A DNA stretch of 38,471 bases from a virus, in the IMG/VR virus record IMGVR_UViG_3300037095_000200, positions 1 through 38,471 of that record; one strand, 5' to 3'. A program made the position numbers and the translations under genes. Position 1 is the first letter of the stretch. Each line of letters begins with the position of its first letter. A model generated the notes under the pieces. It was not told where the DNA came from. It did no database searches and worked only from the letters and a program-made list of their open reading frames with translations. Below are positions 1 to 38,471 of this stretch, piece by piece.

Positions 1-193
1 AAGGCTTCGATCGATAAATTGCCGCTGCGCGCCGCGATTTACGGGGATTTAGGCAAGATGACCAAAGTCCAGGTGGCGGAAAAGTATCACCTGTCGATTT
101 CGCAAGTGAAAGGCTACTACAGCCACCGCTTGCAGATGGCCGAATACAGCAAAGCGAAAGCCTCGGCACCGGTGGAGCAGTGGATCGGCGGAG
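1..193 (+). repeat. terminal direct repeat, left copy
   Basis: Bases 1-193 equal 38279-38471 except that base 128 is G here and A at 38406 (an Arg to His change in the encoded protein). An overlap of this kind is what a circular or circularly permuted genome gives when assembled as a linear contig. The single mismatch suggests population variation or an assembly error. Confidence 0.95.
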
Positions 194-609
194 AGATGGT
201 GGTGATGGCGCCGATGGCCTCGATGGGCGCTGAAATATTGGAGAAGAAAGAATCGGAAGCCAGCTTGTGGGCAACGCAACTTGGATTAGGGGCTTCTGGT
301 CAGGAATCAGGCAAACCGGAGAAGCGCTGGACGATGCCGAAGGTGCTGGAGGCCGTGGCAGGCTACTACGGCGTGAACAAGAGCGAAATGATGCACCAGA
401 AGGGTAAACAGGGGCGTCTGCATGTAGCGCGCAACGTAGCGATCTATTTTGCCAGGGAGTTGGCGCATGCAAGTTTTCCATGCCTGGCGACGGAATTTGG
501 AATGCATCACACCACCTGCATGCACGCCTGTAATCTTGTGTCTGGATGGTTTGCTAGGGGTGGGGAGCGAGCGAGGGAGCTGGATAAGCTCTATGAATTG
601 CTGATCTGA
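1..609 (+). CDS. DnaA domain IV-like DNA-binding protein, C-terminal two thirds (starts at 37994 across the circular junction)
   Basis: The reading frame is open at base 1 and is continuous with 37994-38278 when the terminal repeat is overlaid, giving one protein of about 297 residues; this part supplies residues 96-297. Residues about 108-140 contain a helix-turn-helix-like stretch (KMTKVQVAEKYHLSISQVKG). Residues about 206-275 match the DNA-binding domain IV of the replication initiator DnaA, including FGMHHTTCMHA, which corresponds to the DnaA signature (F-G-x-R-D-H-T-T-V-x-H-A). The AAA+ ATPase domain of DnaA is absent, so it can bind DnaA-box-like DNA but cannot remodel it as DnaA does. 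It is the last gene of the replication operon, directly downstream of the putative origin. It may recruit or compete with host DnaA, or act as a regulator. Family assignment is good; the role is inferred. Confidence 0.75.
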   Translation, partial: KASIDKLPLRAAIYGDLGKMTKVQVAEKYHLSISQVKGYYSHRLQMAEYSKAKASAPVEQWIGGEMVVMAPMASMGAEILEKKESEASLWATQLGLGASGQESGKPEKRWTMPKVLEAVAGYYGVNKSEMMHQKGKQGRLHVARNVAIYFARELAHASFPCLATEFGMHHTTCMHACNLVSGWFARGGERARELDKLYELLI

Positions 610-32439: not shown

Positions 32440-32729
32440 ATTTTGACAACTGGCAAACCGTAGCCACGGTCTTCTTTTTTATCGGCATGGCGGCCGGCCT
32501 GCTGCTCTGTTTCTTCCTGGTCAGCACCGCGTACAAAATGGGGATCTTCCGCAACGTCCTCGATTGCGCCGCCAAGCTGGCCGAGAACTCGCGCCTGGCG
32601 GCGGAGATCGCCGTCTCTGAGCGTCGGCTCGTCGATCTGCGGCAACGCTTCGGCGCGGCCTACGCGGCCGTCTCCAACGCCGGCGAACAGGCTGCGGTGA
32701 GTTCCGATGGAAAGGTGGCCGGGCAATGA
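32436..32729 (+). CDS. small membrane protein with coiled coil
   Basis: This 97-residue protein starts at GTG 32436, overlapping the preceding stop. It has one strong transmembrane segment (about residues 9-30, TVFFFIGMAAGLLLCFFLVS) and an Ala/Glu/Arg-rich helix (about 42-80). The ParB-like gene follows with an ATGA overlap. A role in anchoring a DNA complex or in membrane-linked control is possible, but there is no direct support. Confidence 0.6.
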   Translation: MNFDNWQTVATVFFFIGMAAGLLLCFFLVSTAYKMGIFRNVLDCAAKLAENSRLAAEIAVSERRLVDLRQRFGAAYAAVSNAGEQAAVSSDGKVAGQ

Positions 32730-34519
32730 CCAGTACAGCCATCAGCCATCAGCCGTCAGTTGGTAGCCGGGGGACTTTAGACCTCGATCAGTTGTCAGTG
32801 GTCAGTAGCGTGCGGATGATTCCGCTGGATCTGCTGGATGAGAATCCGCTCAACCCGCGCCGCTCGATGGATGAGGCCGCGCTGAATGAGTTGGCGCAGT
32901 CGATCAAAAACTCCGGCATCACCCAGCCATTGTTGGTCAGGGTGCAGCATATCGATGGCCTGATCGAAGAGCGCTATGAGATCGTCTGCGGGCACCGGCG
33001 CGCGGCGGCGGCATACCGCTTGGAGCTGCTGGAAGTTCCCTGCAACGTGCGGGAAATGAATGATCAGGAGGCCGCGGAGATCGCCTTGGTCGACAATTTG
33101 CAGCGCGTCGACGTGGCCGCGCTCGATGAAGCGGAGGCCTTTGGCGCGTTGCTGGCGCTGCATGGCACCGTGGAGGCCGTCGCCAAGCGTGTGGGCAAGG
33201 AAGTCGGCCACGTGGCCAAGCGGTTGAAGCTCAGAACGCTAGGCATTCACCAGAGAGATTCGCTCAGAGCGAAGCTGATCACCGTCGATCATGCGCTGCT
33301 GCTGGCCAAGCTGGGCGTGGCGGAGCAGGATGAGGCGCTCAAGTGGTGCCTCGATACGCAAGCCGGATCGAAAAAGCCCGTCGAGCAGGTCGTAGGGGAG
33401 TCGGTCAAGTATCTCAGGTCCGCCGGCCGCTATCGCCTGTGGGAGCCGGAGAGTGTGGTGCGGCTGCGCGAGCATATCGAGCAGTCGGTAGGCCGCAAGC
33501 TGAGCCGCGCGCCCTGGTCGCTGGATGACGTGACACTCGTTCAGGATGCCGGCGCATGCAATACCTGCCCAAACAATACCAAGGCCAACACGGCGCTCTT
33601 CTCTGATCTCGATATGGAGGAGGCAACTTGCGCCGACGGAGCCTGTTTCGAGCGCAAGCGCGAAGTTTTCGTACAGATCAAGCTGGCTGCGGCTGCAGCG
33701 GCATCCAAGACGGCGGTCCGGCTGAGCTGGAAGCAGACCAGCACGCCGCCGCGCATGGATATTGGCACATCGGGCGCTGGACCGTCACAGGTTCCGAAGC
33801 TCACGCAGGTCTTCAAGGCTGGCCAGTGGCTCGAGGCCAAGAAGGGATCGTGCGCGAGCATCCTGACCGGCGTCACGGTGGATTGGAGCGACGATGCCAA
33901 CCGCGGCTATATGGGAACCGGCAAGAAGCTGCGCAAGCCGGGCGAGTCGATCCAGGTGTGCGTCGCGGCCAAGTGTAAGGCGCATCGCAAAGAGTACGAG
34001 AAGCCGAAAGATAGCGGTCAGGGAGCAGGTAGCAGGGATCCGAAGGCCGACGCGGAAGCTGCTGCGAAGCGCGAGTCGGATGCGCTCGTAGAGAGCCGGC
34101 TGCGTGTAGCTGTGGCGGCGAAGGCGCTGGAGGGGATTACAAAGCTGCCGATCGATGCCCTCCGCGCAATGGCGATCCATTCACTGCCTAACTGGCAAGG
34201 CGGCCGCAAGGTACACGAAGAGCTGGTTCCGGGCATCGTAAAGATTCTCTCCGAGGCGAAGCTGGACAGCGTGCAGTTCTTCCGGGCGCTGGCGGCGGCA
34301 ACGCTGGATCGCCGCGCGTTTGAGGTTGGCAGCTACCTCGGCAGCAAAGTAACCGAAGACCGCGCCAAGTTCCTGGCCGCTATCAAGAGGCTGGGGTATG
34401 ACGGCTCCGGGGCGTGGGTAAAGCCGAAGGGCAGCGATCAGCCGACAGTGGTCAGCGGTCAGAAAAAGGCCACAAAGAAACCCGCAAAGAAGGCCGCAAA
34501 GAAAGGGGCCAAGCGGTGA
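32726..34519 (+). CDS. ParB/Spo0J-like DNA-binding protein
   Basis: The 597-residue protein has the ParB N-terminal domain: NPRRSMDEAALNELAQSIKN at 43-62 and the GHRRAAAAYRLELLEVPC segment with GHRR at 89-92, a CTPase motif region. A helix-turn-helix region follows (about 150-175). The ~350-residue C-terminal part contains a cysteine cluster (ACNTCPN, CADGACFE) and ends in Lys/Ala repeats (KKATKKPAKKAAKKGAKR). Two heptad arrays are translated in frame (near residues 5-27 and 570-580). No ParA is present. It may organise or regulate the genome or transcription, with partition less likely in an integrating phage. Confidence 0.78.
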   Translation: MTSTAISHQPSVGSRGTLDLDQLSVVSSVRMIPLDLLDENPLNPRRSMDEAALNELAQSIKNSGITQPLLVRVQHIDGLIEERYEIVCGHRRAAAAYRLELLEVPCNVREMNDQEAAEIALVDNLQRVDVAALDEAEAFGALLALHGTVEAVAKRVGKEVGHVAKRLKLRTLGIHQRDSLRAKLITVDHALLLAKLGVAEQDEALKWCLDTQAGSKKPVEQVVGESVKYLRSAGRYRLWEPESVVRLREHIEQSVGRKLSRAPWSLDDVTLVQDAGACNTCPNNTKANTALFSDLDMEEATCADGACFERKREVFVQIKLAAAAAASKTAVRLSWKQTSTPPRMDIGTSGAGPSQVPKLTQVFKAGQWLEAKKGSCASILTGVTVDWSDDANRGYMGTGKKLRKPGESIQVCVAAKCKAHRKEYEKPKDSGQGAGSRDPKADAEAAAKRESDALVESRLRVAVAAKALEGITKLPIDALRAMAIHSLPNWQGGRKVHEELVPGIVKILSEAKLDSVQFFRALAAATLDRRAFEVGSYLGSKVTEDRAKFLAAIKRLGYDGSGAWVKPKGSDQPTVVSGQKKATKKPAKKAAKKGAKR

Positions 34520-36480: not shown

Positions 36481-36531
36481 AAACTAAAAAGAATAGGCGC
36501 GGCGAACAGGTTGAAGCCGAGGGAGAGCACT

Positions 36532-37548
36532 GTGAGTGTTGCGACTGAAGAAGTGACGGGGCTGCGCAACGAACGCAAGCCTTGCCATTTCTGGGTGGAC
36601 AACGAGGTCGCGGATTGTTACCAGCCCATCGTGGGTGCGGACGCGATCTGGGTGTACTGCCGCATTGCTCGCAACGCGCACGGGGCCTGGATTGTTTCGC
36701 CTAAGGTGCGCGCCGGGGATACGCGCGTGAGCTTGCGCGAAATGGCTGAATGGTGCGGTAAGAGCGTGGACACTGTGTCGCGGTGCCTGCAGGTGCTTGA
36801 GCATGTCGGCCTGCTGCGGGCGGTGCGCGGCGCAAAGGCCAAGGGCCGCTATGCGCTGGCGGATGTGAAGGATCTGGTTATGAGTGAGGGCGGTTTGTAC
36901 GACCGTGAAATGGGGAGTTTTCAGTTGCCGGCGGAGCGCGTGGCTGAGTTGAAGCGCCAGGTGTGTGAGCTGCGGCTTAAGCTTGCCAGGAAGAATGGGG
37001 TGCAGTTGGCGGTGGTTGGGGGCCGGAAAGAGGCCGCCGCATCTGTCGCTCAGAGCGACAGATTAGACTGTGGATTATTTGCCGCGCCTGTCGCTCAGAG
37101 CGACAGTTCTGTCGCTCTGGACGTACAGAACTGTCGCTCTGAGCGTACAGCATCTATTAATACAAAACTCAATAAAGCAAAACTAACTACACCCCCCAAA
37201 CCCCCGCAAGCGGGGGCTGAGGGTTTGAGAAACGCGGCCTACGATCGAGCGGCAGACCAGGTGTGCATTGCCCTGGGGATCGAAGAGAACCAGCGGCGCA
37301 AGCGGCGCATGATCGCCGGCGCGGTGAGGTGTGCCTGCGAGAAGGGCGACCCGGCTCCGACCGTGGCGCTGGGGATCATTGCCGCGGTGCGAGAGCAGGA
37401 TGAGCTGCACTTGCGAGGGGAGGTGAAGTTCAAGTTTGGGCTGCAAAAGTTTCTGGGGGAGGGCATCTGGCGTGATCACAACCGCTGGGCTTGGGACCCG
37501 GCAGAGATGCGCAGACAGGGGAATGCGAGCGTGGGGAGCGTGCGATGA
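36532..37548 (+). CDS. winged-helix replication initiator / replisome organiser
   Basis: GTG at 36532 with GGGAG upstream gives 338 residues. The N-terminal domain (about 20-130) is a winged helix: DAIWVYCRIARNAHGAWIVS, TRVSLREMAEWCGKSVDTVS, RCLQVLEHVGLLRAVRG. The middle, residues about 171-222, is encoded by the iteron dyads and an AT-rich tract and is low-complexity (VAQSD repeats). A helical C-terminal domain (about 230-338, NRWAWDP) may bind a helicase or its loader. This layout mirrors lambda O, whose gene contains its own origin. It follows a possible defence cassette, and the stop overlaps the next ATG. Confidence 0.7.
   Translation: MSVATEEVTGLRNERKPCHFWVDNEVADCYQPIVGADAIWVYCRIARNAHGAWIVSPKVRAGDTRVSLREMAEWCGKSVDTVSRCLQVLEHVGLLRAVRGAKAKGRYALADVKDLVMSEGGLYDREMGSFQLPAERVAELKRQVCELRLKLARKNGVQLAVVGGRKEAAASVAQSDRLDCGLFAAPVAQSDSSVALDVQNCRSERTASINTKLNKAKLTTPPKPPQAGAEGLRNAAYDRAADQVCIALGIEENQRRKRRMIAGAVRCACEKGDPAPTVALGIIAAVREQDELHLRGEVKFKFGLQKFLGEGIWRDHNRWAWDPAEMRRQGNASVGSVR
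37043..37195 (+). other. putative replication origin inside the initiator gene
   Basis: Four ~20-bp dyads carry CTGTCGCTC: 37043-37061 and 37088-37106 are perfect palindromes around A, and 37109-37128 and 37131-37150 are imperfect (CTGTCGCTC...ACGTACAG, CTGTCGCTCT...GCGTACAG). TGTGGATTA at 37069-37077 is a DnaA-box-like site in reverse. A tract of about 75% A+T (37151-37190) follows at once in a GC-rich genome. Iterons followed by an AT-rich tract within the initiator gene is the lambda origin plan. Confidence 0.6.
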
Positions 37549-37997
37549 AAGAAGCAGCGGTCAGCAACCAGCAATCAGCCGTCAGCGAAAATCCGGGCAG
37601 CATAGATTTCGTGCGGATCTACGGGGCAAGTTACAGGGAGGTTCGGTTGATCGGCTTGGAGCGGCTGAATGCGATGAGCGACGATGCGCGGCGGGTGCTG
37701 CTATGCGCGGGAACTCACGCCCCCAGCACGGCGGCGATCAAGGCGGCAATAAAGCGGATCTCCGCTGAAGAGCGGATGGAGCGCAAGGTGAAAAGAATTT
37801 GCCGCAAGGCGCGGTGGAGCGAGCCGACACAAAAAGCAGCTCCTTCGACTGCGCTGCGCGAGGAGAAAAAGCCGGTAGTTAGCGCAGCGCCAGTGGTTGA
37901 AGTGAGGCTGGCCGGCAGATTCAGAGCGGCGTTGCCCTGTTTGGAACATGGGCGCAGCGTGGAACGGATGATGGAACTGGCGAGGATATCGGCATGA
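37545..37997 (+). CDS. hypothetical protein, 150 residues, downstream of the initiator
   Basis: The ATG at 37545 overlaps the initiator stop. The first residues (MKEAAVSNQQSAVSENPGS) are encoded in part by a heptad array at 37557-37584. The remainder is basic and helical, with IYGASYREVRLIGLERLNAM and an Arg/Lys-rich stretch (IKRISAEERMERKVKRICRK). A REP-like 19-mer is translated at 37841-37859. No family is recognised. Position between initiator and DnaA-like genes suggests replication, for example helicase loading. Confidence 0.55.
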   Translation: MKEAAVSNQQSAVSENPGSIDFVRIYGASYREVRLIGLERLNAMSDDARRVLLCAGTHAPSTAAIKAAIKRISAEERMERKVKRICRKARWSEPTQKAAPSTALREEKKPVVSAAPVVEVRLAGRFRAALPCLEHGRSVERMMELARISA

Positions 37998-38471
37998 GCG
38001 CATTGGGCAAGTTGATCGGCGTGGAGTGCGCGAAGTGCCGGCGCAAGGGGCATCACTGCCAGGCACAGATGGTGCAAGAGCAGCTTTCAGATGTCAGTGG
38101 TCAGTGGTCAGAAGAGCCCGTTTGTATGCGGTGTGCGGATGGGGAGCCTTGCTGCTATGAGACGGCCGCAAAGCTGGCTACGCCGGAGCGCATGAGGGAG
38201 GAAACGGATCCGTGCGCTGTGCCACCGGTGACGGATGAGGATCGAGAGCTGCTGGCGAGAATTGAAGCTGCGGAGCGGAAGGCTTCGATCGATAAATTGC
38301 CGCTGCGCGCCGCGATTTACGGGGATTTAGGCAAGATGACCAAAGTCCAGGTGGCGGAAAAGTATCACCTGTCGATTTCGCAAGTGAAAGGCTACTACAG
38401 CCACCACTTGCAGATGGCCGAATACAGCAAAGCGAAAGCCTCGGCACCGGTGGAGCAGTGGATCGGCGGAG
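37994..38471 (+). CDS. DnaA domain IV-like DNA-binding protein, N-terminal part (continues at base 1)
   Basis: The ATG at 37994 overlaps the TGA of the upstream gene (ATGA) and has GAGG eight bases upstream. The frame stays open to the window end and lines up with 1-609 through the terminal repeat. This portion adds residues 1-95 before the repeat begins. It holds a cysteine-rich segment, C12-x2-C15 with C22 and C44-x2-C47 with C53/C54, that looks like a small zinc-binding module, then an acidic linker. A four-unit heptad array (38085-38112) is embedded in frame and encodes SDVSGQWS between the two cysteine clusters. The organisation is therefore zinc module, linker, helix-turn-helix-like stretch, DnaA domain IV. 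The domain order is unusual and I do not know a characterised homologue. Confidence 0.7.
   Translation, partial: MSALGKLIGVECAKCRRKGHHCQAQMVQEQLSDVSGQWSEEPVCMRCADGEPCCYETAAKLATPERMREETDPCAVPPVTDEDRELLARIEAAERKASIDKLPLRAAIYGDLGKMTKVQVAEKYHLSISQVKGYYSHHLQMAEYSKAKASAPVEQWIGG
38279..38471 (+). repeat. terminal direct repeat, right copy
   Basis: This is the second copy of bases 1-193, with one mismatch at 38406. Both copies are in the same frame of the DnaA domain IV-like gene, which supports joining the ends into a circle of about 38,278 bp. Confidence 0.95.

Follow-up and report, generated by a model that had tools for sequence, protein, structure and literature searches.

The phage and its initiator gene

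We have analyzed a viral record of 38,471 bp, referred to here over its whole length as the window. Its ends share a direct repeat of 193 bp (1-193 and 38279-38471, 192 of 193 positions identical), indicating that the record is circular or terminally redundant. The single mismatch, at repeat position 128, amounts to a His/Arg difference in a protein with a DnaA domain IV that is described below, and means that two variants are present within the record. The gene content includes terminase, portal, capsid and tail genes together with an integrase and a ParB-like protein, pointing to a temperate tailed phage. Its hosts are soil bacteria. The best reading of the host group of this phage family is Acidobacteriota, genomes of which hold relatives of the initiator: one (L022) was found in the MAG SZAS-3, on a 638-kb contig and close to its end, and another (L088) in a second genome drawn from this group.

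The initiator gene is located at 36532..37548 on the plus strand, with a GTG start after AGGGAGA in an ORF that is open from a TTG at 36511. The protein is made of an N-terminal winged helix, a linker whose coding DNA holds the putative origin, and a C-terminal domain. Matches to Pfam and PHROG families and a structural model place a predicted helix-turn-helix with wing at 36712..36873 (plus strand, residues 68-121 of the ORF counted from 36511), which is predicted to bind the dyads found further along the gene. Among PHROGs the best match was the O-like PHROG 678 (E 4.6e-5 over 47 residues), and generic helix-turn-helix families were matched as well; the winged-helix match is weak but consistent. 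The AlphaFold model (pLDDT 72) also has a helix-turn-helix plus wing. No winged-helix model of Pfam scored above its cut-off with the initiator, the lambda O family (Pfam Phage_rep_O) gave no match at E <= 1, and Foldseek with the model returned generic winged helices only, none with E <1e-3. Solved structures searched by sequence with the initiator alignment gave nothing credible, and no annotated phage was matched in a tblastn search with the whole initiator. The C-terminal domain (37228..37545, plus strand) is variable between relatives and is predicted to function in recruiting the host replisome.

Four dyads, covering 108 bp in total, lie within the linker-coding part of the ORF (36511/36532-37548); neither these nor the AT-rich tract and hairpin behind them are assigned to a strand. 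The first two (37043..37061 and 37088..37106) are perfect 19-bp copies of CTGTCGCTCAGAGCGACAG. The third (37109..37128, the 20-bp CTGTCGCTCTGGACGTACAG) and the fourth (37131..37150, CTGTCGCTCTGAGCGTACAG) are imperfect, so the original prediction of four dyads in 108 bp holds in full for the first pair and for one good half-site, CTGTCGCTC, in each of the other two. When the 17-bp core was searched allowing up to three mismatches, three sites were found in the window against 0.33 expected, all of them in the array, and none of 100 shuffles of the sequence reached three. Directly adjoining the dyad sites, as in lambda-type replicons, there is an AT-rich tract (37152..37191), the predicted unwinding element. 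A 40-bp tract of about 75% A+T had been announced, and this one has 77.5%, more than any other 40-mer in the record. It is followed immediately by a C-run and a GC hairpin, CCCCCGC-AA-GCGGGGG (37191..37216). Almost all relatives have a predicted GC-rich outer stem here, its length varying, and in two of them (L008 and L011) a second, inner hairpin has been inserted in the loop with the frame unbroken. We considered the hairpin as a host repeat element and rejected this, the pattern being found solely at this place in phages and being absent from the two host genomes tested. The GC-skew, proposed earlier as a check, was uninformative as an origin marker: its minimum is at 26.9 kb and not at the dyads, and it may track gene direction in a temperate phage.

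Conservation and exchange of the array

Conservation of the dyads at synonymous positions in related phages had been put forward as a check of the origin, and this is what we have found in a codon alignment of nine distinct sequences. Over the first half of the initiator gene the synonymous identity was 0.60 (0.42-0.77 in blocks of ten codons), versus 0.94 at dyad 1, 0.92 at dyads 2-3, 0.72 at dyad 4 and 0.90 at the AT tract. Dyad 1 is identical in nine of the ten distinct relatives aligned and one base off in L022. The right half of dyad 2 is kept in the relatives and its left half is gone in several. The place of dyad 3 is occupied by a full dyad in five of them (L007, L008, L011, L014 and L015), where lone half-sites in mirror order flank this third site. 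The half-site array is preserved in 11 aligned loci, including L088, whose N-terminal domain shares 59 of 142 residues with that of the window. Nor has the initiator been kept anywhere with the dyads lost, as would be expected if the prediction were wrong: all full-length relatives retain dyads and AT tract, down to 40% initiator identity. These values show that the array and the AT tract are selected as DNA.

The peptides encoded by the dyads lead in the same direction. Dyads 1 to 3 are read as SVAQSD, PVAQSD and SVALDV, dyad 4 lies in another frame and gives CRSERT, and in genes of the L045 type the same DNA word is read as SPAATG, CRSERQ and VAPSD. Since the same word is read in different frames, a peptide repeat is ruled out as the explanation. 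Selection on the repeated peptide SVAQSD, or on hairpins in the RNA, has next to no probability. At dyad 1 the peptide hardly varies, and RNA copied from either perfect dyad could fold into a hairpin, but the synonymous sites are frozen, the same DNA appears as SVAxSD, CRSERx or SPAATG depending on the frame, and lone half-sites are kept where a hairpin is impossible.

We have also found a natural exchange of the winged helix and the repeats. A search with the DnaA domain IV protein family recovered three loci (L098-L100) in which the N-terminal helix-turn-helix has no clear similarity to that of the window (18/49 residues in a short local match) and the C-terminal domain is 57-60% identical to that of L006. 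In their linkers, AAGGGTGACA/TGTCACCC repeats replace TGTCGC, and the T5 spacer, the AT-rich tract and the GC hairpin behind it are kept. The reverse situation is found between the window and L005, with the same dyads and with N-terminal parts identical at 137 of 148 residues, versus 31 of 108 in the C-terminal domain. A swap in both directions indicates that the repeats go along with the winged helix, which is what binding of the repeats by that domain would lead one to expect. A different N-terminal domain and different repeats thus stand together on a related C-terminal domain (L098-L100 versus L005 and L006), in the manner of a specificity module. The array and the AT tract are shown by these comparisons of loci to go with the winged helix, and not with the C-terminal domain or the DnaA-like protein. 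L005 and L006 on one side and L098 on the other provide a ready-made swap comparison on how an initiator chooses its origin.

The same exchange bears on whether the dyads could be a centromere for the ParB-like protein of the phage. This protein (597 aa, 32726-34519, ParB_N 2.5e-25, HTH_ParB) is encoded upstream of the initiator. parS sites are short palindromes, a form that the dyads share, and a strong ParB gene is located only 2.5 kb upstream. We nevertheless hold a parS-like role as extremely unlikely, considering that the repeats change along with the winged-helix domain and that ParB_N was detected in five of 12 related records, with no match in L005, L011 and L015, which keep the dyads (records of 32-37 kb, possibly incomplete).

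The DnaA domain IV protein and the box-like word

An ORF spanning the record ends (37994..38471 joined to 1..609, plus strand, 297 aa) encodes a Cys-rich N-terminus and a helix-turn-helix in its 5' part and, at 340-534 in its 3' part, a DnaA domain IV (Bac_DnaA_C 7.8e-16; phmmer 7e-7 against solved DnaA domain IV chains). The likeness to bacterial DnaA concerns this neighbouring gene, which we do not judge part of the origin module, and not the origin. Unlike bacterial DnaA, the protein lacks the AAA+ domain, has the Cys-rich and helix-turn-helix N-terminus attached and has a changed box-reading helix. In cellular DnaA this helix is GRDHTT; we found MHHTT in the window, KLHNST in L098 and RDRAS in L100. 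A DnaA domain IV-like protein without ATPase had been predicted within 1 kb: the domain is real, there is no ATPase and the ORF starts at 0.8 kb, but the domain itself is about 1.4 kb from the dyads. The literature searched yielded no report of a comparable DnaA domain IV protein in a phage.

The DnaA-box-like word expected between the first two dyads is also present (37069..37077, minus strand, TAATCCACA; at these positions TGTGGATTA is one mismatch from TTATCCACA). Its synonymous identity is 0.64 versus the background of 0.60, five such 8/9 matches occur in the window versus 4.1 expected, and the word is probably nonfunctional. We found it only in the window, in the near-identical copy L004 and in the nearest relative, L005; elsewhere the spacer between dyads 1 and 2 is mostly a T5 tract. 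The domain has a similarly restricted distribution. It scored above the Pfam cut-off in two of the 14 searched records that have this type of origin (the window and L004), some of these records being incomplete. L005 has a weak match and a C-terminal domain that is HTH_23-like, and the records of L005-L015 and L017, again with some incomplete, yielded no clear DnaA domain IV. L016, a fragment of the same phage, encodes the domain too, and the homologue in L007 ends in another domain. All three loci with the other origin type (L098-L100) carry the DnaA domain IV protein, and their fetched DNA has no box-like word. Across this protein family, the Cys-rich and helix-turn-helix N-terminus is conserved and the C-terminal DNA-binding domain is exchangeable.

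The original prediction joined the origin, the box-like site and the DnaA domain IV protein in one unit, the phage protein binding the box or competing for it. Word and domain do co-occur in the window and L004, and also in L005 if its weak domain match is counted, and chance alone would place an 8/9 box match in about one of 60 segments as long as the 150-bp origin. Taken as one set, however, the three do not stay together: the box is missing from all the other aligned relatives, where the spacer is unconstrained, the domain is absent from the side of the same origin in L006-L015, or another domain stands in its place, and it is present beside a different, box-less origin in L098-L100, and the helix that would read the box is changed in the window, L098 and L100. 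We consider such a unit very unlikely. An origin of the DnaA/DnaA-box type does not fit either, with the boxes unconserved (one 8/9 match) and a domain IV without AAA+. We read the protein as an accessory regulator that has nothing to do with the choice of origin. There is an outside chance that in the lineage of the window it could be a phage-made regulator acting at or near the origin (on the box-like word or another site) or on host DnaA boxes, which would tie phage replication to host initiation, and that this accessory was lost or re-targeted, by a change of C-terminal domain, in the relatives.

The dyad word in other phages and lambda-type origins

We scanned blindly 2.9 million viral contigs (IMG/VR) for two TGTCGC-N5-GCGACA dyads within 30 bp. 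The pair was found in 40 stretches falling in 14 DNA clusters; a scrambled word of the same composition was found in one stretch. An O-like winged-helix model was built from the initiators of other phages, none of them with such arrays. In 33 of the 40 stretches, the ORF that bears the array has an O-like winged helix ending between -4 and 27 residues before it, versus 35 of 400 (9%) random positions in the same short loci, an enrichment of about ninefold. These 33 initiator-gene arrays come from unrelated phages. Judged by inspection and Pfam, the array is inside a gene and follows immediately on a helix-turn-helix domain (HTH_36 in most cases) in 11 of the 14 clusters; of the remaining clusters, two are near Cro/CI-type regulators and one is of low complexity. 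The word TGTCGC-N5-GCGACA is thus common to about eleven DNA-level groups of phage initiators, being shared by an initiator with 40% identity (L027/L088) and by several unrelated ones. No earlier description of this word or dyad sequence was found in the literature searched.

Three of the matches (L065, L053 and L054) were judged low-complexity or operator-like and rejected as initiator arrays. The dyad pairs at L053:9642-9692 and L054:10357-10406 are close to small Cro/CI-type regulator genes and not inside an initiator gene; they are probably operators, and for this reason the word alone is no proof of an origin. The dyads of the window could by the same token be operators, acting in autorepression or at an internal promoter. 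Similar dyads near regulators in L053 and L054 favor this, whereas the location of 33 of the 40 arrays in mid-gene directly behind an O-like winged helix, and the position of the dyads of the window next to a conserved tract that exceeds every other 40-mer of the record in A+T, speak against it. We regard operators in place of an origin as unlikely.

A second repeat word, GGGTGACA, scanned alone, was found in at least 120 stretches. Nine of the 80 examined were behind an O-like winged helix, versus three of 800 random positions; with so few behind a winged helix, this pattern is much less specific. A single recognition-helix residue might have told the G of TGTCGC from the A of TGTCAC, but we dropped this idea because the Vibrio D77 helix breaks the rule.

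Synonymous conservation, the reading of the word in multiple frames, the link to O-like winged helices across the collection and the natural swap together give good support to the lambda-like origin predicted inside the initiator gene. We consider it very likely that 37043-37216 is the replication origin of the phage, built like lambda ori within a winged-helix initiator gene. Lambda ori extends over 127 bp inside gene O, with the four 18-bp iterons ITN1-4 and 38 bp of AT-rich DNA (PMC3349717), and the site bound by O is a 19-bp imperfect inverted repeat (PMC7466680). Both origins sit midway along the initiator gene, past the part for the DNA-binding domain, and have four dyad-symmetric sites of 18-20 bp followed by about 40 bp of AT-rich DNA, over 149 bp here versus 127 bp in lambda (PMC3349717, PMC7466680). 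Unlike lambda, the window has no Pfam match to the lambda O family and no P-like loader among the scanned proteins, its site sequence is different, and a conserved GC hairpin is found behind the AT tract in its family. The kind of origin is therefore an already known one, the lambda type, in this case in a phage family of Acidobacteriota and with a site word that many other phage initiators have as well.

By analogy, the N-terminal winged-helix domain would bind the TGTCGC half-sites, probably sitting on the dyads as dimers. Once several copies of the initiator are bound, they may wrap the site and melt the AT-rich DNA beside it, as can be inferred from lambda O (PMC7466680, PMC3349717). The C-terminal domain would bring in the host helicase, directly or via a host loader. 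Use of the host machinery is suggested because the phage proteins scanned against PHROGs, which took in part of the small ORFs, included no P-like helicase loader, no helicase and no primase. The locus would give phages of Acidobacteriota an origin that is defined by sequence and easy to test; to our knowledge, few genetic tools are available for this group.

O-like HTH_36 initiators (such as those of Pseudomonas phage MD8, SfV, and Rhodobacter and Vibrio phages) resemble the one described here in having a winged helix and then repeated short words in the linker. They differ in the repeat words, and the protein of the window is only distantly related to them. MD8 has a P-like loader, and some other phages with HTH_36 initiators have a neighbouring helicase or primase-helicase. 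Repeats inside the O-like gene of MD8 had been noted before (PMC8508860). In eight of the 14 O-like initiators examined, a 7-mer is present at least four times in the linker. Because most of the O-like winged helices examined are followed by a repeat word of their own, phage origins that are unmarked so far could be read systematically, that is, found from the repeats behind the winged helix. In the linkers examined (L071-L085), most O-like initiators have their own repeated word at this place, such as GGGTGCA, present seven times in Pseudomonas phage MD8, or GGGGTCA, also seven times, in Pam5.
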